A stretch of DNA of 64,000 nt from Bacteroidales bacterium (GTDB taxonomy: Bacteria > Bacteroidota > Bacteroidia > Bacteroidales > UBA932), in NCBI GenBank assembly GCA_017627955.1, contig JAGAFU010000059.1, positions 1 through 64,000 of the forward strand, read 5' to 3'. A program made the translations under genes and the position numbers. This document shows positions 1 through 15,496 of the stretch, piece by piece (position 1 is the stretch's first letter; each line of letters starts with the position of its first letter). The notes under the pieces were generated by a model. That model was not told the origin of the DNA, ran no database searches, and was given only the letters and a program-made list of their open reading frames with translations.

Positions 1-89
1 CCGACCACGTGTTCCGGAGGCCCGAAGCCAAGTGAGATCCCCATCGGAAAGGGGGTCAAGAGAGGCAGAATTCCAAAACATATTTGACT

Positions 90-407
90 ATGGATATGAA
101 ATTGGACTTGTTCGAGCTCCTCCGGGAATTTCCCGAAGCAACCCTGACCGTCCACGCCGGAGACCTGGGCCATTTCGCCCGGGAACTCCTGGCCGAAGCG
201 CGCCAGGACTTCGAACGCGAGCGCGCTGCGATCGCGGAGGAAAAGAAGGAGGAGTACCTCACCCCTGAGATGGTCAAGACCCTGCTCAGGATTTCGGAGA
301 GCACGCTCTACCGAATGGCGAAAGCCAAGATCCTCATCCCTGTGTTTGTCGGCGGACAGAAACGCTACCGGCGTTCCGACCTCGACAAGATCCTAAGCCC
401 CTCGTAG
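90..407 (+). CDS. Excisionase-like helix-turn-helix DNA-binding protein
   Basis: Small protein of about 105 residues. The C-terminal half (residues ~55-103) reads YLTPEMVKTLLRIS then STLYRMAKAK and GGQKRYRRSDLDKIL, the pattern of the HTH_17/MerR-like excisionase family, in which a short HTH is followed by a wing that contacts DNA. The N-terminal half is charged and probably helical. I chose the ATG at 90 over a TTG at 84; an ATG at 96 is also possible. It sits 2 nt before another HTH gene in a mobilization operon, so a role in excision or replication control of the element is likely but inferred. No integrase is visible; it may lie left of the window. Confidence 0.7.
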   Translation: MDMKLDLFELLREFPEATLTVHAGDLGHFARELLAEARQDFERERAAIAEEKKEEYLTPEMVKTLLRISESTLYRMAKAKILIPVFVGGQKRYRRSDLDKILSPS

Positions 408-409
408 CG

Positions 410-889
410 ATGATGCCTTTCACGACCATCTACAAGTTTATGTGGAAGGACCTGGGGCTCCACGGTGCCGAGAAGGAGTTCTTTGCGGTCATCTACGGCT
501 TCTGGCGGAGAAGCAAAACTCCGGTGGAAATCCCGATCAGGACCGTCACGGAAATCACCGGCCTGAGCCGGACCTCGGTCATCATGGCCAAGAGGGCCCT
601 GCTCAAAAAGGAGCTCGTCGCCGCCCAGGAGATCCGTGGAAAGCCCACCCGCTATGAGGTACTGATCCCGGACCCGTTGGAAAACAGAACGGGTGCGGAT
701 TCTGAACGGGGACCCGTACAGAAATCGAACGGGTACCCGTCCGGAAACTACACGGGTGCAGAGGCTGCACCCAAAATAAACAATTATAAGAAGAATTATA
801 AAACTGAATTGAATTATGGAACGTACTCAAAAAATGAATCAAATTGTATCAGCTCTCGTGGAGCATTCGACACTGCCGACAAGGAATGA
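410..889 (+). CDS. Helix-turn-helix protein of a mobilizable element, replication-initiator-like
   Basis: 159 residues. Residues 1-90 contain a winged-helix-like segment: FAVIYGFWRRSK, then IPIRTVTEITGLSRTSVIMAKRALLKK, resembling the HTH_36 domain found in plasmid replication proteins. The C-terminal ~70 residues are polar, low in hydrophobic content and probably disordered. Two ATG codons (410 and 413) are available. Its end overlaps the start of the ATPase gene by 74 nt in another frame, which suggests translational coupling. In Bacteroidota mobilizable elements a protein of this kind commonly precedes a DnaC-like ATPase. The replication role is inferred from that arrangement. Confidence 0.65.
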   Translation: MMPFTTIYKFMWKDLGLHGAEKEFFAVIYGFWRRSKTPVEIPIRTVTEITGLSRTSVIMAKRALLKKELVAAQEIRGKPTRYEVLIPDPLENRTGADSERGPVQKSNGYPSGNYTGAEAAPKINNYKKNYKTELNYGTYSKNESNCISSRGAFDTADKE

Positions 890-1490
890 CCTTGTCCCCA
901 AACTTCCGCCTCAAATAGAGGGAATAGAAAAAGAAGCACTGGTGGAAGCGCTCAGTCAGATCTACCGCAAAGCCGTCGAGTCCCGCGGCATCGAGTTCCA
1001 GGACATCACCGGAACCGAGGTCGGCGCCAAGATCCAGAAGGCGGCCGAATGGATGCTGGGTAGCCCCGTCCGCTCCGGCCTGCTCCTCCAGGGAACCATC
1101 GGGTCCGGGAAGACCACCCTCATGTACGCGATGTACGGGCTTTATAAGCAGCTCGCCTCGCCGGTGATCTTCACTACGGCCTATGACCTGTACGCCCACT
1201 TCAAGCACCAGCAGGAGAAGGAGGCTTCCCGCTACGAGGAATTCCTCCGGGCGAAGTACCTCTTTGTGGAAGAGGCCGGCGCGGAACCGGAGAGGTGCCA
1301 GAGCTATGGTACGGATTACACACCCATTCAGAATCTGATCTCCTACCGCTATGACCGGAAGCTCCCAACCATTATCACCACCAACCTTGCCGATGACAAG
1401 ATCCTGGACCGCTACGGTCCCAGGATGATGGACCGCATCAATGAGATGTTCTCCATCCTCCGGTTCAAAGGTGATTCCTATCGGAAGTAA
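816..1490 (+). CDS. DnaC/IstB-like ATP-binding protein
   Basis: 224 residues. A Walker A motif GTIGSGKTTLMYAM lies near residues 93-106, and a sensor-like stretch TIITTNLADDKILDRYG followed by RMMDRI lies near the C terminus, as in DnaC-type helicase loaders and IstB. The expected Walker B (hhhhDD) is replaced by YLFVEEAGAEPE, so the acidic pair is E-E. Members of this family load the replicative helicase or assist transposition; here it probably supports replication or transfer of the element. It overlaps the preceding gene by 74 nt. An internal ATG at 834 is an alternative start. Confidence 0.75.
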   Translation: MERTQKMNQIVSALVEHSTLPTRNDLVPKLPPQIEGIEKEALVEALSQIYRKAVESRGIEFQDITGTEVGAKIQKAAEWMLGSPVRSGLLLQGTIGSGKTTLMYAMYGLYKQLASPVIFTTAYDLYAHFKHQQEKEASRYEEFLRAKYLFVEEAGAEPERCQSYGTDYTPIQNLISYRYDRKLPTIITTNLADDKILDRYGPRMMDRINEMFSILRFKGDSYRK

Positions 1491-1649
1491 TGAGTGGCAC
1501 ACTCTGCATGTGTTTCGGGGAGAAACCCTCCCGAAACACTATGCTAGTTGTGCCGATGTCGAACAATTCCGCTGCGCGATTGTCCAACTCCCGGCGGGGA
1601 AGCCTGCTCGCAAGCTCGCATCCGTGGCGGAATTTAAACACCTTTAGTT
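1491..1649 (+). other. Candidate oriT region upstream of mobC-mobA
   Basis: A 159-nt gap between the ATPase and mobC. It contains a perfect 10-bp inverted repeat GTGTTTCGGG / CCCGAAACAC at 1510-1519 and 1530-1539, not followed by a T run, so it is unlikely to be a terminator. Origins of transfer in Bacteroidota mobilizable elements usually lie just upstream of the mob genes and contain such hairpins next to the nick site. The nick position itself cannot be identified by eye. Confidence 0.4.
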
Positions 1650-2027
1650 ATGAAACAGAAGTATTTTGACTCCAACAATTTCAAGGTCAACAAGACCTGC
1701 AGGATGGGATTCCGTGCCACTCAGCATGAGCAAATCACCATCCAGGCAAAGGCGCAAGCCTGTGGTAAATCCGTCAGCGAATACATCCGCCAGTGCGCCC
1801 TCGGCCACAAGCCCAAGCTCCGGATGACCCGGAGCCAGGCCCAGGCTTACATCAGCCTCAACGAAGCCCGAGGCGACCTGATCCATATCAAGAACGCTCT
1901 GAATGCCATGAAACCGGAAGACCGTCTCCTGTGTTTCGGGGATGCGTTCAAGATGCGCCGGTGGATTGCTGCCGCGAACAAACTCATCAAACGCTGGCGC
2001 GAAATTGAACGAACCTTAACAGAGTAA
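1650..2027 (+). CDS. MobC-like relaxosome accessory protein
   Basis: 125 residues, basic, starting with a ribbon-helix-helix-like segment: CRMGFRATQHEQITIQAKA followed by GKSVSEYIRQCALG, typical of plasmid mobilization relaxosome proteins (MobC family). The rest is helical with many Arg and Lys residues. These proteins bind oriT and help the relaxase melt the nick region. Its stop is 3 nt before the relaxase start, giving the usual mobC-mobA pair. The oriT candidate lies directly upstream. Confidence 0.8.
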   Translation: MKQKYFDSNNFKVNKTCRMGFRATQHEQITIQAKAQACGKSVSEYIRQCALGHKPKLRMTRSQAQAYISLNEARGDLIHIKNALNAMKPEDRLLCFGDAFKMRRWIAAANKLIKRWREIERTLTE

Positions 2028-2030
2028 GCC

Positions 2031-3215
2031 ATGATAGCAAAAGCTAAATCCATCGCCCACGGTGGCGTGTCCCTCGGGTACATAACCCGTCAAGGAAAAG
2101 CACAGGTAGTAAAACTGAACCACCTCCCGGAGGATGCCAGCCCCCAGGCCATCTACGGGTATATGAAACTGCACCAGAAACTCCGGGAGGAAGAGTTCCA
2201 ACGACGTCCCCTGAAGAACAATATGATCCGGATGGAGATTTCTCCGTCCAAGGAAGAATCTAAGGGCTGGACCCTGGAAGATTGGAAGAGGCTGGCCGAA
2301 GATTTCGTCCAGGCTTTCGACAGGGTCCGGCTCCCTGGAGAGGAGGGGCGCTATAGGTCTCCCTGCCGCCTTCCCAAATCCCAGTACATCATCACGCTCC
2401 ATACGGACAGCAAGTCCGGAATCCCTCACCTCCATCTCGACTGCAACCGAGTCGATATGGACAACTGCCTGAACAGCGACCACCTGATCGGCATCCGAGC
2501 AAAGACAGCAGCCGAGGAGATCAACCGCCTGCGCGGCTGGAAACGCACGGAAGATCGGTTCGAAAAGAACAAAGCCCGTATCAAGAAGGATTGCCTCGCG
2601 GCTCTGTCAGGATTGTCGGCCTTCTCCTGGGAGAAGTATTCCGCTGCGCTGGAGGCCAAAGGATATACCGTCAAGCTGAATAAGGATGCCGACGGGGCCA
2701 TTCGCGGATACTCCATCCAGAGTGGTAATTCCGTTTATAAGTCCTCCATCGTTTCCCGCGATCTTACGCCTGCAAGGATCCAGGAAACCTGGGAAAAGAT
2801 GCGTCCGGAGAACAGATATGGGCAGATGACCTATGAAGAGCGCCTCGCTTTTGCCACGTCCGATGAAGGGAAGGATTATCTGTTCCCGTTGGGTTTAACC
2901 TTGGATGGGAAGAGATATGAGACAAAAGTATCCGGAGGAGCTGTGAAGGCCTTTTATGAAGAGAGCAGAGAGATCGAGCGAATCCATTCGCCGGAAGAGA
3001 CAGGCAACATCTTTCGAACAGCCTTTCTTCTTTTCGTGGAACAAGTCGATGCCGCCACCTCCTTCGCACAAAACTGCGGAGGCGGCGGATCCGCTCCCGA
3101 CCCCAACTGGGGCCGCGACAAGAACGAGGACGACATCCTCTGGGCCCGCCGTTGCTTCCGCAAGGCCCGGGAGATGGTCACTACGCCGGTGATACGGTGG
3201 GGTAGAAGGAGATAA
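2031..3215 (+). CDS. MobA relaxase (mobilization nuclease)
   Basis: 394 residues. The N terminus (AKAKSIAHGGVSLGYITRQGK) matches Bacteroidota relaxases. The metal-binding motif is seen as YIITLHTDSKSGIPHLHLDC (H-x-D...H-x-H, residues ~125-145), followed by N-RVD. The family nicks one strand at oriT and stays covalently attached to the 5' end during conjugative transfer. The C terminus is Arg-rich. No coupling protein or type IV secretion genes are seen, so the element is mobilizable rather than self-transmissible, as far as the window shows. A terminator hairpin follows at 3232. Confidence 0.88.
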   Translation: MIAKAKSIAHGGVSLGYITRQGKAQVVKLNHLPEDASPQAIYGYMKLHQKLREEEFQRRPLKNNMIRMEISPSKEESKGWTLEDWKRLAEDFVQAFDRVRLPGEEGRYRSPCRLPKSQYIITLHTDSKSGIPHLHLDCNRVDMDNCLNSDHLIGIRAKTAAEEINRLRGWKRTEDRFEKNKARIKKDCLAALSGLSAFSWEKYSAALEAKGYTVKLNKDADGAIRGYSIQSGNSVYKSSIVSRDLTPARIQETWEKMRPENRYGQMTYEERLAFATSDEGKDYLFPLGLTLDGKRYETKVSGGAVKAFYEESREIERIHSPEETGNIFRTAFLLFVEQVDAATSFAQNCGGGGSAPDPNWGRDKNEDDILWARRCFRKAREMVTTPVIRWGRRR

Positions 3216-3507: not shown

Positions 3508-6500
3508 ATGAGCCAGCATTTGATTACCAATCAGGAAAAGTTCCTGTCGGAAGTCATCAACGACATCCTCCCCGGATGCGACAAAGCCTACTTTCTGGTC
3601 GGCTATTTTTACTTTTCCGGCTTCCAGGAAATCTATGAAAAACTTCAAGATAAGCATCTCAGGATATTGGTCGGCCTCGACATCGAGCGCAGTCTTGCCA
3701 ATGGCATTCGCGAAATAGACGATTATACGCAGAGGACAAAGACGCGCGTCCAGACCCGTGACGAGTATTATCAGGGTCTCGTGGACATATTCAACAACAC
3801 CGACTTCTTCGATACGGAACGCCAGATTGAAGCATTCAAACTCTTCTGTGACAAAATTGCCAACGGTACCCTGGAGATTCGCAAGACACTTGACCCCAAT
3901 CACGCGAAGTTGTACCTGTTTGAATACAAGCCGGAGCATCAGTCAATCACTCAGCAGCCTGGACAGATGATAACCGGTTCCAGCAACTTGTCTGTTGCAG
4001 GTCTTAAAGGCCGAATTGAACTGAACACCATCCTTCGCGACCCTGTCTATTACAACGAAGGGAAAGAACTCTTTGACAAACTCTGGGAAACCGCAGTTCC
4101 AGTAGCTGACCTTGAGCATCTTCCTGAATTCACCGAGAAGGTCATAAAAAAGATTTGGATGGAGAAACTGTATTCCCCGTATGCAATGTTCATCCGCATC
4201 CTGCAGGAATACTTCTCTCAACCTGATGATAAAAACCTTCTCAAGCCGAGCGACATCACCGACGGCATCTACACAGACCTCAAATACCAGTTAGATGCTG
4301 TTCAAATGGCCATGAAAGCCATCGAAAACCACGACGGCGTCATCATTGCAGACGTTGTTGGCCTTGGTAAAAGTATCATTGCATCTACCGTTGCAAGGAA
4401 TCTTCACCTGCGCACAATCATTGTCAGTCCTCCGCATCTTAAACAGCAATGGGAAGAGTACAGGGACCAGTTCGGTTTCACTGCATCCGTATTCAGTAGC
4501 GGCAAGATTGAAGCCGCGCTGGATCACTATCGGATGATTGTCCGCAACAATGAGCAGTTCCTTATTATCGTCGACGAAGCCCACAAATACAAGAACGAAG
4601 ACATTCAGGATTACAGCATACTTCACGACCTGTGTATGGGTAACAAGGTAATGCTGCTCACAGCAACTCCTTTCAACAACCGCCCCAACGACATCTTCTC
4701 CATGCTCAAACTCTTCCAGATACCGAGCAAATCCACGTTGAAGACAGTCGATGACCTTGGCGTAGCGTTCCGTGACCTCATCAAGAAATACGAGGAAATG
4801 GCTGAAGCCCAGCGTAAGAAGACGATGACGGATGCAGAAATTAAGGCAGAAAGCAAGCGCATAGCCAAGCAAATACGCTCCATTATATCACCTCTGGTTA
4901 TCCGACGCTCCCGACTCGATTTGGACGAAATCCCTGCGTATAAGGCCGACCTGAAAGCTCAGAAGATAAAGACTGTCATCCCCGAAGACCCTGTCTCTCT
5001 TACATATAACCTGGGCGGCGATAAAGATCTGTACCTGCGTACGCTTTCCATGATTTCTCCCACGGCCGAGGAGAAACTGGCTCACAAAGATGACGAATCC
5101 TTCGTCTATTACAAATCAGCACGATACAAACCGTCCTCTTATTTGACAGATGATGCAGAATTGCTGGAGCAGCTGAAAAGAGAACTTGAAGACAAGACCG
5201 GGATTAGCCTCCAACTCTTGTTAGGACGACAGGCCAGCGTATCAGACTTCATGCGCAAGATGCTCGTCCGCCGCTTTGAAAGCTCGGTTGCTGCATTCAA
5301 AGAATCGCTCAACTCAATGATTCAATCCTCCGAGAGTATCCTCCGCTGGATCGAAAAACGGGACAAGATACCTGTTTACAAGAAAGGCTCCCTGCCGGAC
5401 GTAGACGAATTCTACGAAACCACCGACGATGACCTCAGCCAGGAAATCGAAGAAGCTTTTGAAAAGTACACAGACCGTGGATTTTTCGAGATTGACATGA
5501 AATACATCAAGCGGGACGAATACCTCGCCGATATGCTTTCAGATCTGAACCTTCTTCAGCAGATTCAGGAAGAATGGTTTGGGAAAGACCAGGTTATCCG
5601 CTTTGACCATAAACTCACGGAGTTCAAAGCGCAGCTTCGTTTCCTTCGTGCAAGTGATCCAAAGCGCAAAATTGTCGTTTTCACTGAATTCGCAGACACA
5701 GCAAACTATCTTGGAGAGTCCTTAAAAGGAGAGGGCCTCGGCATCTTCAAATACACCTCAGGAGACAGTTCTACTACCAGCAAGAAAACCATCCGGGAAA
5801 ACTTCGATGCGGGTCTGAAACTGGATTTCCAGAAAGATGACTACCAGGTTTTGATTGCTACCGATGCCATCTCGGAAGGATACAACCTCCACCGTGCTGG
5901 CACTGTCTTCAACTACGACATCCCATACAATCCGACCCGTGTGATCCAGCGTATCGGCCGTATCAATCGTATCAATAAGAAGATGTTCGATAAGTTGTAC
6001 ATTTACAACTACTTCCCGACAGATATTGGCGAGCAGGAAACTCGTACCAAACAGATTTCCACGCTGAAAATGGCTATGATCCACGCCATTATGGGTGAAG
6101 ACACCAAAGCACTTACCAGCGATGAAGAGCTTAACGCATTCTTCAAAGAGAGATACCGCAAGGAACTGGCTTCCAGCGAAGAATTATCCTGGGACACCAA
6201 ATATCGCCGCATACTTGATAGCGTCAAGAATACAGATATCTACCAGGAGGCGATGAGTATTCCTCACCGCTCCCGCATTGGGCGTAAGGTCGAGAAACCT
6301 ATCCAGGGTGTAATCCTCTGTGACAAGAAAGGCAATGATTTCGTATTCAAAGTGGGCCAGGCAGATGATCTGAATCCCATCTCCATCAGCGCAGAGGACG
6401 CTCTTGGAATCTTTGAGGCAGAAGAGACCGAAGCCCCTGTTGCCGTGAGCAAAGGATTTGAGCCGGTGTACCAGACCGTCAAGTCAAAACTCTTCAAGGA

Positions 6501-6789
6501 TACTGTTGATGGCGAGAATGAGCGTAGTCGCCGCGAGGCCTATTCAATAATCAAAGCTTGGCAGAAGAACAAGATCCTCTCCACCGATTATCTGGAAGAC
6601 CTGCTTCTCCTGATGCGAAATGATGGTCTTACTGGTGAAGAGATTCGTTTCATTAACAAGCTGAAGCCTAAAAACGCCGATACCTTGCCCAAGAAAATCA
6701 CTCCCGACTACATCAAACGCTGCATTATGAAGATGAATGCCGTTGATGAAGGCGAGGAAACCCTCATATTAGCAGAAGAAATCCAATAA
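3508..6789 (+). CDS. PLD-nuclease/SNF2-type helicase of a restriction-like defence module
   Basis: 1093 residues. The N-terminal ~200 residues carry a phospholipase-D-like nuclease motif: HAKLYLF with H at ~132, and GSSNLSVAGL at ~157-166. A superfamily-2 helicase follows: Walker A VVGLGKS (K ~288), DEAH at ~356-359, LLTATPFNN ~383, and the C-terminal lobe with VVFTEFADTANYL (~725), ATDAISEGYNL (~785) and QRIGRINRI (~815). The last ~250 residues are unassigned. SNF2/HepA-type helicases with PLD domains occur in defence islands as the translocating and cutting subunit of restriction-like systems. It ends 15 nt before the methyltransferase gene, so the two are co-transcribed. DISARM drmD is a similar helicase, but no drmA or drmB is present here. 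The defence role is inferred. Confidence 0.85.
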   Translation: MSQHLITNQEKFLSEVINDILPGCDKAYFLVGYFYFSGFQEIYEKLQDKHLRILVGLDIERSLANGIREIDDYTQRTKTRVQTRDEYYQGLVDIFNNTDFFDTERQIEAFKLFCDKIANGTLEIRKTLDPNHAKLYLFEYKPEHQSITQQPGQMITGSSNLSVAGLKGRIELNTILRDPVYYNEGKELFDKLWETAVPVADLEHLPEFTEKVIKKIWMEKLYSPYAMFIRILQEYFSQPDDKNLLKPSDITDGIYTDLKYQLDAVQMAMKAIENHDGVIIADVVGLGKSIIASTVARNLHLRTIIVSPPHLKQQWEEYRDQFGFTASVFSSGKIEAALDHYRMIVRNNEQFLIIVDEAHKYKNEDIQDYSILHDLCMGNKVMLLTATPFNNRPNDIFSMLKLFQIPSKSTLKTVDDLGVAFRDLIKKYEEMAEAQRKKTMTDAEIKAESKRIAKQIRSIISPLVIRRSRLDLDEIPAYKADLKAQKIKTVIPEDPVSLTYNLGGDKDLYLRTLSMISPTAEEKLAHKDDESFVYYKSARYKPSSYLTDDAELLEQLKRELEDKTGISLQLLLGRQASVSDFMRKMLVRRFESSVAAFKESLNSMIQSSESILRWIEKRDKIPVYKKGSLPDVDEFYETTDDDLSQEIEEAFEKYTDRGFFEIDMKYIKRDEYLADMLSDLNLLQQIQEEWFGKDQVIRFDHKLTEFKAQLRFLRASDPKRKIVVFTEFADTANYLGESLKGEGLGIFKYTSGDSSTTSKKTIRENFDAGLKLDFQKDDYQVLIATDAISEGYNLHRAGTVFNYDIPYNPTRVIQRIGRINRINKKMFDKLYIYNYFPTDIGEQETRTKQISTLKMAMIHAIMGEDTKALTSDEELNAFFKERYRKELASSEELSWDTKYRRILDSVKNTDIYQEAMSIPHRSRIGRKVEKPIQGVILCDKKGNDFVFKVGQADDLNPISISAEDALGIFEAEETEAPVAVSKGFEPVYQTVKSKLFKDTVDGENERSRREAYSIIKAWQKNKILSTDYLEDLLLLMRNDGLTGEEIRFINKLKPKNADTLPKKITPDYIKRCIMKMNAVDEGEETLILAEEIQ

Positions 6790-6804: not shown

Positions 6805-9800
6805 ATGCAGTTCAACAAAGCATACAACCGTCAGGAATTCGTGAGTTTCCTCCGCAATTCTTTCCTTCCTGATGACTTTCAACCCGCTGAAACCCCCGTT
6901 ACTCTGCATACGCAGACCAAGTTTACGTCATCCGTAACCAAACTGGGGAGCTGTTCCTCGCTGGACCTCGTGGTCTATGAAATCCGGCACCGTTCCAGAA
7001 ACGACGCCCGCGTCGGCCTCTCCAAAGAAGCTTTCCGCGTCCTAGCCGACGAATGGGAAGACCGGGCGCTGGTCATCTTCGTTCCGGAAGAATCTGCAAA
7101 CAATTACCGTTTCTCATTGATCACCGTTGAATTGGATCTTTCCGATTCCGGCAAACTTAACAAGCGCTATTCCAATCCTCGTCGCTATTCTTACTACCTG
7201 GGTGCTGGCATAGCAACCCATACTCCGGATCAGTTCCTTCAGCAGAAGGGTCGCGTTGTGGACGGAAACGACCTCAAAGACCGTTTCTCCGTGGAAGTCC
7301 TTACCAAAGCTTTTTACAACGAACTCTCCGACTGGTATGCCTGGGCAGTACGCGTGGTACGTTTCCCGAACAAGATTGATGACCCTTACGATGATGACCA
7401 ATACAATTCAGAAGCGACTATCCGCCTGGTTACAAGACTCATCTTTGTCTGGTTCCTTAAACAGAAGCATCTAATTCCTGACGAATTCTTTGACGAGAAG
7501 TTCATTGCAAACAATCTTCTGGACGGTTTTGAGCCCAACGCCATCGTGAATCTCTTTGGAAAATCAGAAGAGAGTCGTTACTACAAGGCCATTCTGCAGA
7601 ACCTCTTCTTCGCGATGCTCAATAGCCCCATTACGCCGGAAGATAAGGATACCATCAGTGAACGGCGTTTCCGTAGCGGCAGAGGCGATTATGACAACAA
7701 CAAGCTGATGCGCTACGAGTCAATGTTCTCCAATCCAAAACTCTTTGTGGAACTTGCCAACAAGACCGTTCCTTTCCTCAACGGTGGCCTATTCGACTGC
7801 TTGGATGACAAAGATCACGGCAACTACATTGACGGCTTCTCAGATCGCGATGTCGTTAAGCGCAGCCTTATTGTGCCGGATTACCTGTTCTTTGGTGACA
7901 CCGTAGGTAAAGATATCGACCTTTCAGAGTGGTATGGAGACGCTTCCAAGAAGAAGGTCAGTGCATCCGGCATAATTGATATCCTCAAACGCTACAACTT
8001 CACTGTCGAAGAAAACACGCCATACGACCAGGAGGTTTCTCTTGATCCAGAGTTGTTGGGTAAGGTTTTCGAAAACCTGCTGGCCAGTTACAACCCGGAG
8101 ACAAAAACTACTGCCCGTAAACAAACAGGTTCTTTCTACACGCCGCGTGAAATCGTGCAGTACATGGTTGACGAAAGCATCATTGCTCACCTCAACAAGA
8201 CCGTCGGAAAGGAACTTGAGCCCGAATACCGCAAACTCGTCAGTTATACGGATGAGCCTCTGAAGTTGACGGAGAACCAGAAGTCAGCCATTATCAGCGC
8301 CCTGTACGATTGCAAGGTCCTTGACCCCGCCTGTGGCTCTGGAGCATTCCCTATGGGTATTCTGCAACAGATGGTCCATATCCTGTCCGAACTTGACCCG
8401 ACTAACGAGAAGTGGGAGGACATAGTTTTGGATAAGGCTGTGGAAGAATCCAATGACGAAAGCAGCACACTATCCGAGGAGGAGAAGGAAGAGCGCCGTA
8501 GAGACATCGAGCGCAGCTTTGACGAAAGCCTCAACTACCCGGACTATGCCCGAAAGCTCTACCTCATCGAGAACTGTATCTACGGTGTGGACATCCAGCC
8601 GATTGCTATCCAGATTTCTAAGCTCCGTTTCTTCATCTCCCTGGTAGTGGACCAAAAGGCCAACAACAACCCGGTAGAGAACTTTGGTATTCGCCCCCTG
8701 CCTAACCTGGAAGCCAAGTTTGTTGCCGCGAACTCATTGATTGGACTCAAGAAGAATAACTCGCTCTTCGTGACCAATATCATCGAAATAGAAGAGAAAC
8801 TCCAGAAGGCCAACCATAAGATATTCAGCGCTAAAACCTATCGCACCAAGCGCAAATACCGTGAGCTCCTCAAGACGCTCCGGCATGAGATGGTGGAGAA
8901 ATTGGCAGAGATTGATGTTATCTCCAACGACCAGGTCGAGCAGCTGGCTTCCTGGGATATGTTTGACCAGAACAGCTACGCATCCTTCTTTGACCCTGAG
9001 TGGATGTTTGGTGTTTCCTCTGGCTTTGACATCGTTATTGGCAATCCGCCATATGTTTCGACAAAGGGAGTAAAGGAAGAGGACAAAAAGAAATATGAAG
9101 CTGAATTTGGATTCTCCGATGACACCTACAATTTATTTACATTCAAAGGATTGAGCCTGACTAATAAAGGTGGTTCATTGTCATACATCATTCCAAAAAC
9201 CTTCTGGACAACTGGGACTAAACGTGGGATGCGTGATTTGATTTTAGGTAAACAGATCCGCTACGTTTTCGATACGGCTAATCCTTTTGAGGCCGTTATG
9301 GTGGACACATGTATCATCCAAGTATTGAACGAAGATTTCGTAGGTAATAATTTGGTTCATTTTCTGGATGGCAGCAAGGATTTGCGGAATCCTATCGTCT
9401 TTGACCCTATTGAGCAGAGAATATTCTGTAATACTCAGAACTCCGTGATTTTCAAACCGTCAGCATATAATATGCACATTTGGAATCTTTATGGGGAGAA
9501 GGTTAAAGATCTATACAACCAATGGTGGGACAAAATTGAAACAAGCAAGAAGATTAGCCAGAATGCGGCTGTTCTAAAGAAGTACAGGGAGAGTCTTAAG
9601 CCAGGCGACGTTGCTCTGCTTGGTTGTCTTACTGAAGGCGGTCAAGGACTTGCCACAGCAAACAATGGAAAATACATCGCCGTGCGCAAATCTACGAAGT
9701 GGGCTGGTAACATTCTTGAATCACGTCCAAAGAAATTGCAAGATGCAGTTGTTCGATTCAAGATAGCCCCTCGTGAGCTATATGGTCTTTCTCCTATTGA

Positions 9801-10539
9801 GTTCTTGAGAACAAGTTCTGAGGAGGAGATTGCAGAAACATTTGATCGTCTGAAAGAAAAATACGGTCGTGATATTTTTGGGCAGGGGTACATATACAAA
9901 ATTATTGATGATTCTGAATTGGCAGATGTAGATTCTCTCACTGAAGATGAAAAGGAGAATGGGATTGACACCTCGAAGGATTATTATGTACCATACGATA
10001 AAGGAGATAAGGACGGAAATCGCTGGTATCTTGAGACTCCTTTCGCCATCGCCTGGTCCAAGGAAAATGTCCATTTTTTGAAGACAAATTCTGGTAAGAA
10101 AGGTGCGGGAATGCCTGTTGTTAGAAATACTCAATTCAATTTTAAGGAGGGATTTTGTTGGAGTCTGATTAATGGTACTCGAAGCGAGAATGATTTGAAG
10201 TTTAGGCTTTCAAGCGCAGGAGTAAATGATGTAGGTGGAATGAGCTTGCATAGCATGTCATCGTTACTGCCAGACTACTACATTGTGTGCCTCGGTAATA
10301 GTAATCTGATGAGTAGGTACTCTGAAACATTTATCAATTTTACCGTCAATTTTCAGATTAACGATGCAAGAATCCTTCCTATTATTGTCCCTAATCAAGA
10401 CGAACTGAATTCCTTTAGAAAAGTATTTGATAAAGCGTTGTCAATGAAGAAACTACACTCAGAATATCAAGATGAAGAGGAGATTCGCAGGGAACTAAAT
10501 CAACTAGTTGATAACCTCTATATTGGTAAGACCATATAG
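6805..10539 (+). CDS. Eco57I-type adenine-specific DNA methyltransferase with an exchangeable C terminus
   Basis: 1244 residues. Methyltransferase motif I is VLDPACGSGAF (D ~507) and the catalytic motif IV is NPPY (747-750), together defining an N6-adenine methylase of the Eco57I/PglX/Type IIG group. The N terminus has LDLVVYEIRH, possibly a degenerate nuclease fold, without a clear ExK. The region after NPPY should hold target recognition. From about 9055 the DNA becomes markedly more AT-rich. Codons 1089-1094 (VHFLKT) lie in a 17-bp sequence repeated inverted at 11347-11363, and codons 1115-1119 (EGFCW) in a 16-bp sequence repeated inverted at 10914-10929. Homologous alternative C termini lie in reverse orientation downstream. 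The last ~150 residues are therefore probably switchable by DNA inversion. No pglZ, brxC or brxL is nearby, so this is not a BREX locus. Confidence 0.9.
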   Translation: MQFNKAYNRQEFVSFLRNSFLPDDFQPAETPVTLHTQTKFTSSVTKLGSCSSLDLVVYEIRHRSRNDARVGLSKEAFRVLADEWEDRALVIFVPEESANNYRFSLITVELDLSDSGKLNKRYSNPRRYSYYLGAGIATHTPDQFLQQKGRVVDGNDLKDRFSVEVLTKAFYNELSDWYAWAVRVVRFPNKIDDPYDDDQYNSEATIRLVTRLIFVWFLKQKHLIPDEFFDEKFIANNLLDGFEPNAIVNLFGKSEESRYYKAILQNLFFAMLNSPITPEDKDTISERRFRSGRGDYDNNKLMRYESMFSNPKLFVELANKTVPFLNGGLFDCLDDKDHGNYIDGFSDRDVVKRSLIVPDYLFFGDTVGKDIDLSEWYGDASKKKVSASGIIDILKRYNFTVEENTPYDQEVSLDPELLGKVFENLLASYNPETKTTARKQTGSFYTPREIVQYMVDESIIAHLNKTVGKELEPEYRKLVSYTDEPLKLTENQKSAIISALYDCKVLDPACGSGAFPMGILQQMVHILSELDPTNEKWEDIVLDKAVEESNDESSTLSEEEKEERRRDIERSFDESLNYPDYARKLYLIENCIYGVDIQPIAIQISKLRFFISLVVDQKANNNPVENFGIRPLPNLEAKFVAANSLIGLKKNNSLFVTNIIEIEEKLQKANHKIFSAKTYRTKRKYRELLKTLRHEMVEKLAEIDVISNDQVEQLASWDMFDQNSYASFFDPEWMFGVSSGFDIVIGNPPYVSTKGVKEEDKKKYEAEFGFSDDTYNLFTFKGLSLTNKGGSLSYIIPKTFWTTGTKRGMRDLILGKQIRYVFDTANPFEAVMVDTCIIQVLNEDFVGNNLVHFLDGSKDLRNPIVFDPIEQRIFCNTQNSVIFKPSAYNMHIWNLYGEKVKDLYNQWWDKIETSKKISQNAAVLKKYRESLKPGDVALLGCLTEGGQGLATANNGKYIAVRKSTKWAGNILESRPKKLQDAVVRFKIAPRELYGLSPIEFLRTSSEEEIAETFDRLKEKYGRDIFGQGYIYKIIDDSELADVDSLTEDEKENGIDTSKDYYVPYDKGDKDGNRWYLETPFAIAWSKENVHFLKTNSGKKGAGMPVVRNTQFNFKEGFCWSLINGTRSENDLKFRLSSAGVNDVGGMSLHSMSSLLPDYYIVCLGNSNLMSRYSETFINFTVNFQINDARILPIIVPNQDELNSFRKVFDKALSMKKLHSEYQDEEEIRRELNQLVDNLYIGKTI
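10069..10085 (+). repeat. Left 17-bp inversion site within the methyltransferase gene
   Basis: GTCCATTTTTTGAAGAC, encoding VHFLK plus the first two bases of the next codon, starting at codon 1089. It is identical in inverted orientation to 11347-11363, while flanking bases differ. The outermost GTC/GAC is dyad-symmetric, as expected weakly for a serine recombinase site. Confidence 0.8.
10147..10162 (+). repeat. 16-bp sequence shared with silent module C
   Basis: GAGGGATTTTGTTGGA encodes EGFCW. It is repeated exactly and inverted at 10914-10929, where module C begins, and identity stops on both sides. The matching position in module B (GAGGGTCTATGCTGGA) is diverged, so the match is not only due to protein conservation. 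It may be a second crossover point or a trace of past recombination. Confidence 0.5.
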
Positions 10540-10929
10540 CATATTTACTATATCATTGATAGAGCTCTCGATTACTTCTAATCGTGAGTTTTTCTGCTCT
10601 CCATGTGTCACAGCTTTAGATTCTTCTGATTTTATTTTGACCGCTTCTTGGAATAGGGGCTTTAAACATTCTAGAAACTCTTTGCTCGGCACTACAACCG
10701 GAAGTAAACGGATGTCGTTAATTTGGATGTTCACGGAGCAGTTTATGAATGTCCTGTAATAATTGAAAAGCAAAACCGAATTCAAGATGCTAACAAAATA
10801 ATAATTAGGTAGTTGTGTCGTGATTGAACATAAAGACATAGAGCCGACATCATTCACGGATGCAGACTTCATTTTGGCTTTTAAAAGCCTTGCTTGAGGG
10901 TTAAGAACATTGTTCCAACAAAATCCCTC
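10504..10929 (-). pseudogene. Silent C-terminal specificity module C of the methyltransferase
   Basis: An open frame of about 141 residues, starting EGFCWNN and containing SASVNDVGSMSL, LPNYYFV, TFINCSVNIQIND and LLPVVVP. It aligns along its length with residues 1115-1244 of the active methyltransferase (SAGVNDVGGMSL, LPDYYIV, TFINFTVNFQIND, ILPIIVP). There is no promoter or proper start: its first codons overlap the stop of module B in another frame. Its stop (10504-10506) lies in a 14-bp palindrome inside the coding end of the active gene, so the two 3' ends overlap antisense. It is a storage cassette rather than a gene. An internal ATG exists at 10872 but would give only a fragment. Confidence 0.78.
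10914..10929 (-). repeat. Inverted copy of the 16-bp sequence at the start of module C
   Basis: Exact inverted partner of 10147-10162. A crossover between the two would join codon 1114 of the active gene to module C in frame, giving a predicted 1255-aa protein. Confidence 0.5.
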
Positions 10930-11363
10930 TACTTTATGGAATAGATTCTGTCTACGGTCTTATCTAACCTTTGCTGAAGAACCATTAATTCATCTGCACC
11001 GTTAGATGACTTCTTAATTCGAATCGCATCTTCAAAGATGATTTTCAGCTCCTTCAAATCATCTTGAGTAGGAATGATAATAGGTAGCTGACGGGCATCG
11101 TTTATCTGAAAAGTCTGTGTATTATTTACATAATTATCAACGTAATAGCTCATTAATGTGGAATTAATGAGGCAAATAATGTAGTACTCTGGAACTCTCG
11201 GTGTGAGACCATATAAACTCATACTCTTAACGTCATTGATACTCTTCTGCTTGAGCCGACATTTAAGGAAAGTGGTGTTTATATCGCTCCAGCATAGACC
11301 CTCCTTAAAAAAGAACGTGTATCCCTGGTAACGAGCTCTTGGATCCGTCTTCAAAAAATGGAC
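10929..11363 (-). pseudogene. Silent C-terminal specificity module B of the methyltransferase
   Basis: An open frame of about 144 residues, beginning VHFLKTDPRARYQGY inside the 17-bp repeat, then FFFKEGLCWSDIN, SINDVKSMSL, VPEYYIICLINS, QTFQINDARQLPIIIP and ending RIYSIK. It aligns with residues 1089-1244 of the active protein over its whole length, with strong conservation at KEG-CW, ND--MSL and QINDAR-LPI and divergence between. A stop lies just upstream of the repeat (TGA TGC CCG TTC...), and no ATG is in a usable place, so it is not expressed in this orientation. After inversion at the 17-bp sites it would replace the active C terminus in frame. Confidence 0.82.
11347..11363 (-). repeat. 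Right 17-bp inversion site at the start of module B
   Basis: Exact inverted partner of 10069-10085, in the same reading frame (VHFLK). It lies 18 nt from the stop codon of the serine recombinase gene. Confidence 0.8.
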
Positions 11364-11381
11364 GGTATTTTGGAACGGGCA

Positions 11382-12032
11382 TCAATAGATGCCTCGATTC
11401 CATCGCTCACTTGTGATTTTTGTTGGAATTCGAATACCGGTATACGCAAGGTATCTATACAAAGTTCCTCTTGCTACTTTTATCTTTTTGGCAATATCTG
11501 GAATACTTACGCCATCCTCTAACTGCTTTACGATAAATGCGTGCTTACTTCTACACACTTTATTCAGAGCTCTGTTTCTAACGCCCTTTTTCCTTCCGAG
11601 GTTTGTGCCCTCAGCTTTAATTCTGGCCAGCGCCTCCTTGGTGCGTTGGCTGATTAGGTTGCGCTCAATCTCGGCAGACAGTCCGAAAGCAAAGGCCAGC
11701 ACCTTGCTCTGAATATCTTCGCCCAGCCGGTAATTATCCTTTATAGTCCATACCCTGCATTCCTTTGTCATGCAGATGTTCAGGATTTCCATAATCATGA
11801 ACAGATTTCTGCCCAAGCGGGACAACTCCGCGCAAATGATGAGATCATCTTTTTGAACACGCTTGAGAAGCTTGCCCAGCTGACGCTTGTTATAGTTCTT
11901 GGTTCCACTGATGGTCTCTTCAATCCACCCATCAATGGTCATAGATTGTTTGGCGCAGAAGTTATTAATTTCAAACCTCTGGTTCTCGACAGTTTGCTTG
12001 TCGCTGCTTACTCTGATGTACCCGTAAATCAT
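11382..12032 (-). CDS. Serine site-specific recombinase (DNA invertase, Mpi-like)
   Basis: 216 residues. The N-terminal resolvase/invertase domain has YGYIRVSSDKQ with the catalytic Ser near residue 9-10, ELSRLGRN (~69-76) and SAEIERNLISQRTKEAL at the long helix. The C-terminal ~60 residues hold an HTH (GVSIPDIAKKIKVARGTLYRYL). The start MIYGYIRVSSDKQTVENQRFEI resembles the Bacteroides master DNA invertase Mpi family, which flips promoters and other segments at short inverted repeats. Its place directly outside the inverted repeat pair makes it the likely enzyme switching the methyltransferase C terminus. It is transcribed away from the 12081 gene and shares a 48-nt AT-rich divergent gap with it. 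Confidence 0.88.
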   Translation of the reverse strand: MIYGYIRVSSDKQTVENQRFEINNFCAKQSMTIDGWIEETISGTKNYNKRQLGKLLKRVQKDDLIICAELSRLGRNLFMIMEILNICMTKECRVWTIKDNYRLGEDIQSKVLAFAFGLSAEIERNLISQRTKEALARIKAEGTNLGRKKGVRNRALNKVCRSKHAFIVKQLEDGVSIPDIAKKIKVARGTLYRYLAYTGIRIPTKITSERWNRGIY

Positions 12033-14197: not shown

Positions 14198-15496
14198 TCA
14201 AGCCAGCAGCGCCTCCAGAACAGTGGCGTGATGGCCGGGGAGGATAATATGGTGATTGCCAATGGGTTCCGTCAAGAAATAAGAGGCAGCGGAACGAGGC
14301 AACTTAAGCACTGTCTGGGTCCTGCAAAGATCCGGCTTAGCCTCGCAGCGAAGAAGTTCCCCTTCGCAAACGAAGTGCCTTGACAAATCCCCTGAGACCT
14401 TGAACACCGTAACCGGCCCGGAAGGAAGCTGACCACGTATTCCTACCCCGATTCCGGACTCGAAATGAGTGTCCAACCCGAATGAAGAGACCATGTCCAG
14501 CGGCACCGTGCAATGCGAGAAAACGATCTCACCCGTTTCGGGATCAATGCTGGACGGATTGGCCTGGAAGCCGCTGACTCCCGAAACAGCCCGCCCGATC
14601 ATCATCGACAGCATGGCGGGAACATCTCCCTCACAACCAGCGACATAGCCCTCGGAATTAAGGCGGGCAAGAGCCAGGCAGCCAGTGTTATGAATAGAGG
14701 TCAAGAGGTCGAAACACCTGATAGTCAGGCCGGAAAGGCCGTAATCAGTGGCCAGGGTCAGTAGTGCTTTATAGAGGCGGTTTGCTCCGGGGATGGCTTG
14801 CTTTACGGGAGTGGAGAGCGGCCCTTCGGCTCCGCTCAGGGACCGGTCAGTGTCGTTCAGCGGCCCTTCGGCTCCGCTCAGGGACCGGTCTGTACCGCTC
14901 AGGGACCGGCAAGCGCTTCTCAAGGACTGAACCTCTTTCCAGGACTCCGCAACCTCATCCTTCAAGGATGAATATTCCTCCAGAAGCTCCTCCATCGGAA
15001 TATATTGCAACGATATCCCAAGCTTATCCAAGATCACATCCCGGTCGAAACCACTGGAAATCAGCCAGTCAGACGGATGGCCCACAATTCCGAGAGTCTT
15101 ATATTCAAGGAAGCGACGAGCCTCCTCAACCTTTGAGAGAGCCTCTATTCGAGAACGGATGTACGAAGGACTCCCGTGCAGGATCTCCCCACGGAGACCT
15201 TCCTGACGCAAATAGGACAGGATCTCCATCGAGGCCGCCAGCGAATTGCTTTTCCCGGAAGTCAACAGCAGGATCGGCTGGCGTGAAAGGCCCTGCAAAG
15301 TGGGCAGCAGCTCCTTGAAAAGACCTTCAGTCCCCCCTGTCCTGACAAAAATCAGCGACAACTCGGTACCGTAGTCTTCATAATCATCACCTTTAAAGGA
15401 ATATTCAATTCCAAGCCCTTCAAGGAATTCCTTGGTCGCGGCATCGACAGCGGCCTTGTCATGAAGAGTGGACGTAAGAGTGAAAATTGAAATCAT
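14198..15496 (-). CDS. L-fucose/L-arabinose isomerase-like protein
   Basis: 432 residues. KTLGIVGHPSDWLISS (~133-150) and the C-terminal segments ETGEIVFSHCTVPLDM, CRTQTVLKLP and EPIGNHHIILPGHH match the fucose isomerase-like family (COG2407), in which the final GNHH motif and acidic residues hold the metal. The N-terminal half is the sugar-isomerase Rossmann part. Residues ~195-240 contain an in-frame tandem insertion (DRSLSGAEGPLNDT, then DRSLSGAEGPLSTP) made from dispersed DNA repeats; it probably lies in a surface loop. Function as a true isomerase is not certain because the substrate-binding residues cannot be checked here. Confidence 0.7.
   Translation of the reverse strand: MISIFTLTSTLHDKAAVDAATKEFLEGLGIEYSFKGDDYEDYGTELSLIFVRTGGTEGLFKELLPTLQGLSRQPILLLTSGKSNSLAASMEILSYLRQEGLRGEILHGSPSYIRSRIEALSKVEEARRFLEYKTLGIVGHPSDWLISSGFDRDVILDKLGISLQYIPMEELLEEYSSLKDEVAESWKEVQSLRSACRSLSGTDRSLSGAEGPLNDTDRSLSGAEGPLSTPVKQAIPGANRLYKALLTLATDYGLSGLTIRCFDLLTSIHNTGCLALARLNSEGYVAGCEGDVPAMLSMMIGRAVSGVSGFQANPSSIDPETGEIVFSHCTVPLDMVSSFGLDTHFESGIGVGIRGQLPSGPVTVFKVSGDLSRHFVCEGELLRCEAKPDLCRTQTVLKLPRSAASYFLTEPIGNHHIILPGHHATVLEALLA
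14819..14909 (-). repeat. Dispersed repeat family A, two full copies and one partial, in frame
   Basis: A 28-bp unit beginning CGGCCCTTCGGCTCCGCTCA occurs at 14819-14846 and 14861-14888, with its last 15 bp again at 14895-14909. The period of 42 bp equals 14 codons, so the reading frame of the isomerase-like gene is kept. The identical 28-bp unit is at 53475-53502 in the MBOAT gene, and a diverged relative lies at 32264-32339. Confidence 0.85.

Follow-up and report, generated by a model that had tools for sequence, protein, structure and literature searches.

A putative specificity shufflon in the 3' end of a PglX-like methyltransferase gene of a Bacteroidales bacterium

The 64,000-nucleotide stretch analysed here (the window) comprises positions 1 to 64,000 of contig JAGAFU010000059.1, contig 46 of 60 in a 2.58-Mb genome of a Bacteroidales bacterium (UBA932; GCA_017627955.1). 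It carries a gene for a PLD-SNF2 helicase, followed by one for an Eco57I/PglX-like adenine methyltransferase, two silent opposite-strand versions of the end of the latter gene (modules A and B), and a gene for an Mpi-family serine recombinase. We propose that the locus is a specificity shufflon, in which the recombinase would join oppositely oriented matching sites and flip the DNA between them. Recombination at the first pair of sites (site 1, 10069/11347) would replace everything after the peptide VHFLK by module B, giving a 1232-residue enzyme; recombination at the second (site 2, 10147/10914) would replace everything after EGFCW by module A, giving one of 1255 residues; and in the orientation assembled a form of 1244 residues, form X, would be on. 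The exchange would spare the catalytic domain and the beginning of the recognition domain and affect only the second part of the latter, so that the same adenine would be methylated within a motif altered at other bases, probably those at positions 1 and 4. DNA without the current mark would presumably be attacked by the PLD-SNF2 partner, and a clone would thereby keep subpopulations with different self marks. We put at about 0.86 the probability that the site-1 switch is driven by the adjacent recombinase, judging from the sequence comparisons that follow; exchange at site 2, taken as a step by itself, appears probable at a lower level of assurance.

Site 1 is an exact 17-bp inverted repeat, GTCCATTTTTTGAAGAC, with one copy inside the methyltransferase gene and the other at the head of module B (Table 1). 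The original prediction had identified it, and had noted that it is read as VHFLK in the same frame from both copies (residues 1089-1093 in the gene); both observations are correct. A search of the window for the 17-mer, allowing up to 3 mismatches, found these two matches only, where 0.14 are expected on average, and two matches occurred in 0 of 100 shuffles. In 500 resamplings of 9400-12032, each a first-order Markov draw rather than an exact dinucleotide shuffle, the longest repeat with copies more than 300 bp apart measured at most 15 bp. The two minus-strand modules are, as had been claimed, homologous to the active 3' end of the gene and lack a start codon at their heads: module B (10929-11363 with site 1) is 46% and module A (about 10504-10929) 42% identical to that end, the TTG given as the start of B is part of the repeat, and in A no ATG occurs until 10872, some 19 codons in. 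Each reading frame is open up to its own stop, a TAG for B, and a search of the genome with the 156-residue end matched the gene and the two modules only. The recombinase gene stands where it had been placed, its stop 18 nt from the site, and the protein, full length against the Mpi-family model NF009949, scores 331.5 bits on it (cut-off 272). When the segment between the two copies of site 1 was inverted in silico, the gene ran on into the module B end to encode an uninterrupted protein of 1232 residues.

A second inverted repeat, of 16 bp (GAGGGATTTTGTTGGA), was overlooked in the original prediction; its gene copy lies in the EGFCW codons, and module A starts at the other copy. In-silico inversion at this repeat kept the frame and produced a 1255-residue protein with the module A end, as compared with 1244 residues in the assembled form. 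Switching on and off was rejected, since each of the two simulated inversions yields a full-length enzyme. The general form of site 2 is GAGG-GN-TTTTGTTGG, of which 27 copies are listed, 21 of the F type (EGFCW) and six of the L type (EGLCW). It is conceivable that only site 1 works, module A being a dead remnant and site 2 being kept for the sake of the protein. Site 2 is indeed coding and sits in conserved residues, so that protein constraint may keep it; the module-less homologues L168 (GAG GGG TTT TGC TGG) and L167 (GAG GGT TTT TGT TGG) retain most of it, both preserving EGFCW; and A modules lack site 1. These observations count against a second exchange point, but in all three contiguous loci with an A module (the window, L032 and L068) A begins at the site-2 repeat near the stop of B, in L032 and L068 at that stop or a few bases from it. 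The F-type copies, moreover, have the codons TTT TGT in 21 of 21 cases, whereas the L-type copies differ in their codons for Leu and Cys; GGN ends in the same base within each of the 8 loci having two F-type copies (A, A, G, T, A, A, A and C); the segments on either side of site 2 reassort, as described below; and module A, its frame uninterrupted up to the stop, is of a type that is active in L127. We consider the restriction of switching to site 1 unlikely and retain two exchange points. Instead of the single flip that had been predicted to swap the last ~150 residues, the locus looks three-way, and it is probably just the latter half of the recognition domain that is replaced.

Related loci were sought in other genomes (designated by L and G numbers respectively; L007 and L128, L008 and L127, and L009 and L169 are the same loci under two labels). 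Relatives of the methyltransferase were found in 18 of 299 genomes of the family; the site pattern was found in 6 of 393 genomes and the recombinase, at E <= 1e-75, in 15 of 393, the source genome being included in both counts. Eight relatives besides the window combine the gene, one or more opposite-strand modules, a recombinase and a repeat pair of one of two site classes: class 1 in L128, L032, L044 (Porphyromonas macacae), L052 (a Treponema metagenome-assembled genome, or MAG) and L068 (Prevotella bivia DSM 20514), and class 2 in L127, L062 and L074 (a Helicobacteraceae MAG). Every relative with an opposite-strand module in the initial locus comparison (8/8) also holds the recombinase. A ninth locus, L126 of genome G444, has the gene and a module on a contig that ends inside the switch, and the recombinase on another contig of that genome (L150). 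Six more loci, L031, L053, L111, L113, L157 and L159, show a third arrangement, class 3, with exchange at another place: in those with long open frames (L031, L113, L157 and L159) 289-310 residues would be exchanged, the frames in L053 and L111 being shorter. The closest relative of all, L031, is 92% identical to the window in the helicase and 84% in methyltransferase residues 1-838, yet has a class-3 switch. Silent open reading frames (ORFs) were called modules by a regular expression, and any without [EGQ]G[FIL]C[WF] would escape. Five genomes gave single hits of the site pattern: four (L122-L125) look like chance hits, since neither a methyltransferase nor a recombinase matched there, and the fifth is the genuine member L126. 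The switch end is rare in the phylum: its C-terminal 245 residues matched 2 of 395 genomes drawn from that phylum, one of them the source, and in the other, G692, neither module nor recombinase was seen. A search of plasmids returned 1 record, an L. plantarum plasmid with one target recognition domain (TRD) and an annotated site-specific integrase, in which neither a second module nor any relative of the recombinase of the window was found; a search of phage records returned no match.

The recombinase and module B of the window share a reading frame, with a TGA and six codons between them (11364-11384). Read-through of the recombinase stop (TGA at 11382) into module B was considered as a designed feature and rejected, the frame not being conserved: the two are in the same frame in L052 as well, and overlap, hence in different frames, in L044, L068 and L032.

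The class-1 site has the form GTCC-NN-TTTTTGAAGAC, NN being AT, GG, GT, AC, AA and AG in the six loci, window included. This dinucleotide is equal in the gene and module copies of each locus, and the rest of the site is constant save for the first base of the module copy of L052, which for that reason fails the class-1 pattern. Class-2 sites read GTCG-NN-TTTCTTAA (GG, GG and GC) and class-3 sites GAGC-NN-TTTYGT (GT, GA, CT, GA, GT and GT). In a scan with NN left free, in which chance matches to the class-3 pattern elsewhere in L127, L031, L157 and L150 were disregarded, both copies were recovered from 14 of 18 loci, with zero disagreements at NN; the identity within pairs is partly by construction, the pairs having first been detected as exact matches, and to that extent it tells less in favour of a switch. 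Because serine recombinases cut with a 2-bp stagger and require matching overlaps, the variable dinucleotide would most simply be the recombinase overlap. The class-1 site is not kept by the switchless one-TRD homologues L167 (GTT GCC TAT CTT AAA) and L168 (GTG AAA TTT TTG AAA). In a tree of 30 recombinases the class-1 loci fall in one group of 7 (support 87/77) and the class-2 loci in one group of 3 (100/100).

These data bear on the possibility that the exchange is the work of general homologous recombination or gene conversion between the repeats, the recombinase serving some other purpose. Such a process would find suitable substrates in L127, where gene and module share 76 bp of uninterrupted identity, and in the class-3 loci, which share stretches of about 100-140 bp, and it could account for combinations that arise despite a degenerate site 2 (N1-beta, below). 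Except in L127, however, the class-1 and class-2 repeats are 15-28 bp long, which is short for RecA; sites of these classes track the recombinase groups; the recombinase is present in 8 of 8 module-bearing relatives of the initial comparison; and variation of the class-1 site between loci is concentrated on a dinucleotide. We judge homologous recombination to be a very unlikely agent, and keep to the adjacent recombinase.

Within a locus, sites 1 and 2 may have the same dinucleotide, as in L127 (GG), L032 (GT) and L074 (GC), where both are in the same codon phase and cross-joins would stay in frame, or different ones, as in the window (AT versus GA), L128, L052, L062 and L068. A more elaborate scheme, which we advance tentatively and at somewhat less than even odds, is a two-level half-domain shufflon: one recombinase would use two kinds of coding site to exchange N and C segments separately, rewriting bases 1 and 4, the site kinds would be kept apart in 5 of 8 loci by their overlap dinucleotides, and the cassette would have moved between backbones and phyla. 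From residue ~386 to ~711 the methyltransferases of L068, L074 and L126 are 41-47% identical to the window protein, and further on 58-65%, which suggests that the switch-bearing 3' half has been transferred among distinct backbones.

Both states of the switch are seen when species are compared. We distinguished by eye five types of C segment, that is, of sequence beyond site 2. Type alpha is active in the window and L009, silent in L127 and L068; beta is silent in the window (module B), L032, L044 and L068, active in L062, L126 and L051; gamma is silent in the window (module A), L052 and L074, active in L127; delta is active in L128, L044 and L068, silent in L032 and L062; and epsilon is active in L032, silent in L128 and L126. 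The active ends of L052, L074 and L034 fall outside all five. The search of related genomes for exchanged modules, proposed at the outset as a check, thus shows both arrangements across species, all five types having active as well as silent representatives. The active/silent label takes 10 changes (bootstrap 8-10) on a tree of 25 C-terminal segments, 12 of them active and 13 silent, from which L059 and L051 were omitted because a contig end cuts them; at least 6 of the changes are forced by well-supported branches; shuffled labels average about 8.5, and the real labels cluster no more than these. Two kinds of N segment occur between the sites, N1 (TNSGKKGEGMPVVRNPQFYF) and N2 (TDPKARYQGYTFYF); each is found with alpha, beta, gamma and epsilon, whereas delta has only N1 or no N segment. 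Such reassortment of N and C segments is predicted by two exchange points. In L062 N2-beta is on and N1-delta off, and in the window N1 is on and N2-beta off. The recurring architecture, the active and silent types, the recombinase groups and the intact 1232-residue product in silico uphold the part of the original prediction that posited a recombinase-driven switch of the specificity end.

Several observations weigh against our interpretation. No flip was seen within one strain, the two states being known across species only, and the flipped junction was absent from viral contigs (0 matches), a collection unlikely to hold it. The class-3 recombinases do not form one group, and those of L031 and L053 are 83% and 89% like that of the window, yet their loci have a different site; the class-3 loci, besides, were sought because the recombinase was present. 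The N1-beta combination in L126 and L051 requires exchange at a degenerate site 2 (EGLCW), at which a strict site rule fails. Identity of the helicase partner falls to 26-30% in L044, L052 and L068, and no such partner was found in the 14 kb of L159. For the Treponema and Helicobacteraceae loci, which were taken from MAGs, the taxonomic assignment depends on the binning. L034 retains both sites with no recombinase found within its 17.6 kb, and so illustrates that sites can persist where none is found nearby; this, together with the lack of direct evidence for the other state in this strain, would suit a frozen relic, a switch that formerly worked and is now locked in this genome. But the recombinase is full length against its model, neither module frame is interrupted before its stop and the two copies match exactly at each site, and we think it improbable that the switch is locked. 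We infer instead that a working switch inverts in this strain, at site 2 probably by the same enzyme as at site 1.

Among the active ends of 12 proteins (66 pairs), identity averages 79% over the 80 residues that precede site 1 and 42% beyond site 2. The exchanged part aligns to residues 749-862 of Escherichia coli BrxX (E 1.2e-7). With the C-terminal profile, residues 708-878 of Salmonella PglX were matched (E 2.9e-5), and the C-terminus was also aligned to MmeI. In BrxX the TRD comprises residues 651-837, in which R751 reads G1, K681 and D684 read base pair 2, Q784 reads A3' and N823 reads A4, a loop of the methyltransferase domain (MTD) reads base 6, and engineered changes at corresponding positions gave degenerate motifs (PMC11842806). 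In PglX relatives a lysine at 802 covaries with C at position -1, and at 838 histidine does so with G and asparagine with A at that position (PMC11341690). Reading the residue mapping by hand from the profile alignment alone, we found R751 of BrxX aligned to R1107 in N1 and to no counterpart in N2; in form X, G1144 aligned to BrxX G785 (PglX 802) and N1182 to BrxX N823 (PglX 838). The same two positions are G and N in form A, K and T in form B, L and H in delta and E and H in epsilon. The swapped part is thus probably the DNA-reading second half of a BrxX/PglX recognition domain; the residues matching K681 and D684 should lie upstream of site 1 and remain unchanged. Since forms X and A carry G and N as does E. 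coli BrxX, which reads A, and form B carries K and T, we predict that position -1, beside the adenine that is methylated, is read as A by forms X and A and as C by form B. Form B is also predicted to change base 1.

The helicase exceeds the gathering scores of Pfam PLDc_2, SNF2-rel_dom and Helicase_C, is matched by the PADLOC models C3a139 (HKD+Snf2) and DrmD, and has an HKD-like motif, HAKLYLFE, at residue 132, in which the D position is occupied by E. The methyltransferase matches Pfam Eco57I at 4e-30 and has the motifs DPACGSG at residue 507 and NPPY at residue 747. Both proteins miss every NCBIfam cut-off: the methyltransferase scores 105.6 bits on the PglX model NF033452 (cut-off 500), and the score on the DrmD model NF038317 of DISARM (defence island system associated with restriction-modification) is 162.3 bits (cut-off 610). 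In the 11 ORFs compared with Pfam between 84 and 13449 there was no PglZ or BrxC family; the DrmA model matched the SNF2 helicase only, with no further helicase or DrmB-like family in these ORFs. Methyltransferase and TRD are in one chain, as in Type IIG/IIL enzymes, and REase_MTase_IIG is the best PADLOC match; the N-terminal 400 residues of the methyltransferase gave no Pfam nuclease hit at E 0.001. A restriction role for the pair is plausible, because the helicase scores on the DrmD and HKD+Snf2 models and the methyltransferase on those for Type IIG and PglX.

Mpi of Bacteroides fragilis flips capsule-locus promoters at distant sites; the recombinase described here is of the same family, scoring above its cut-off, but its sites are coding and adjoin its gene. 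Inversion of hsdS involves inverted repeats in the specificity gene, silent partners and a local recombinase, and changes methylation. The present locus has the same three ingredients but differs in that specificity resides in the C-terminus of a one-piece methyltransferase, and in that the recombinase is of the Mpi serine type and its gene is beside that for a PLD-SNF2 helicase. Inversion is also a means of varying pglX of BREX (bacteriophage exclusion) systems. Phase variation of pglX has been reported, and the two cases have in common a PglX-like methyltransferase whose expression or recognition domain is variable; the PglX models are below cut-off here, however, and no other BREX gene occurs among the neighbouring ORFs tested. 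Milman and colleagues reportedly described, in 2023, programmed inversions in Type II restriction-modification genes, which may or may not include this gene pair. That is probably the same general phenomenon, and may extend to Eco57I-type genes; to conclude from the original prediction that nothing comparable has been described would be too strong.

Programmed inversion of Type I hsdS is well known (PMC11868660, PMC11892184, PMC5903667). An HKD nuclease, a Swi2/Snf2 helicase and an N6-methyltransferase, with further genes, form a BREX-related, restriction-modification-like system (PMC12839542); it resembles the present pair in coupling an HKD-SNF2 effector with an N6-methyltransferase but adds a DUF499 ATPase and DUF3780, neither of which was matched in the neighbouring ORFs tested, and its main text never mentions recombinase, inversion, invertase or phase variation. 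ARMADA includes a PglX-like methyltransferase and an Snf2-type helicase together with a YprA helicase (PMC12458937). The present helicase-methyltransferase pair with a serine invertase did not turn up in searches of the open-licence literature. Specificity inversion is known for other genes; what is new here is the exchange point belonging to module A.

Other features of the loci may be recorded. Immediately 5' of the helicase gene, at 84-3215, the window encodes a helix-turn-helix protein, an IstB-like ATPase, a NikA-like mobilization protein and a MobA-type relaxase; from these genes, the helicase-methyltransferase module probably rides on a mobilizable element. Three copies of a 42-nt direct repeat at 14817-14921, in the frame 14198-15496 (minus strand), encode repeated RSLSG peptides. 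The contigs bearing L126 (G444) and L169 (G137) end inside or beside the switch; this may reflect an assembler meeting mixed orientations, and the repeats alone could suffice. L151 (7393-12794) looks like a switch: two of its segments are silent, and an inverted repeat of 31 bp falls in the codons (GFDIV) before NPPY, by which part of the catalytic domain would also be exchanged; having a different exchange point, it was kept out of the site classes. In L111, at 10844-11044, two near-identical tandem copies of about 100 nt of the module start, with N between them, could have arisen in scaffolding or by duplication of the module head. On contig 1 of G003 (1534412-1537043) a homologous methyltransferase is split into several frames by internal stops.

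Table 1. Switch components and the associated gene pair in the window
Feature	Position	Strand	Basis or remark
PLD (HKD-like)-SNF2 helicase, 1093 aa, predicted restriction effector	3508..6789	+	Pfam, PADLOC, HKD-like motif
Eco57I/PglX-like adenine methyltransferase, 1244 aa, form X, active as assembled	6805..10539	+	Pfam, motifs
Site 1, gene copy, GTCC-AT-TTTTTGAAGAC	10069..10085	+	exact 17-bp inverted repeat; VHFLK codons, residues 1089-1093
N1 segment between sites 1 and 2, TNSGKKGAGMPVVRNTQFNFK	10086..10146	+	holds R1107, aligned to BrxX R751
Site 2, gene copy, GAGG-GA-TTTTGTTGGA	10147..10162	+	EGFCW codons, residues 1115-1119
Active C-segment X, type alpha, SLINGTRS...	10163..10539	+	groups with silent modules of L127 and L068 and active end of L009
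Silent C-segment A, type gamma, begins NNVLNPQARLLKAK	10504..10913	-	no site 1; head without start codon
Site 2, module A copy	10914..10929	-	first base is last base of the TAG stop of module B
Silent module B: N2 segment (TDPRARYQGYTFFFKEG) and type beta C-segment (SDINTTFLKCR...)	10929..11346	-	degenerate site 2 (EGLCW)
Site 1, module B copy	11347..11363	-	exact 17-bp inverted repeat
Mpi-family serine recombinase (invertase), 216 aa	11382..12032	-	NF009949, Pfam Resolvase and HTH_7

If our interpretation is right, a two-gene defence module changes what counts as self DNA by flipping a segment rather than by mutating it, and the flip exchanges just the part of the enzyme that reads defined bases. 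The aligned BrxX/PglX positions would make such programmed change of specificity testable base by base, and the isolates of Bacteroidota, with the MAGs of Spirochaetota and Campylobacterota, would amount to a natural library of interchangeable half-domains.

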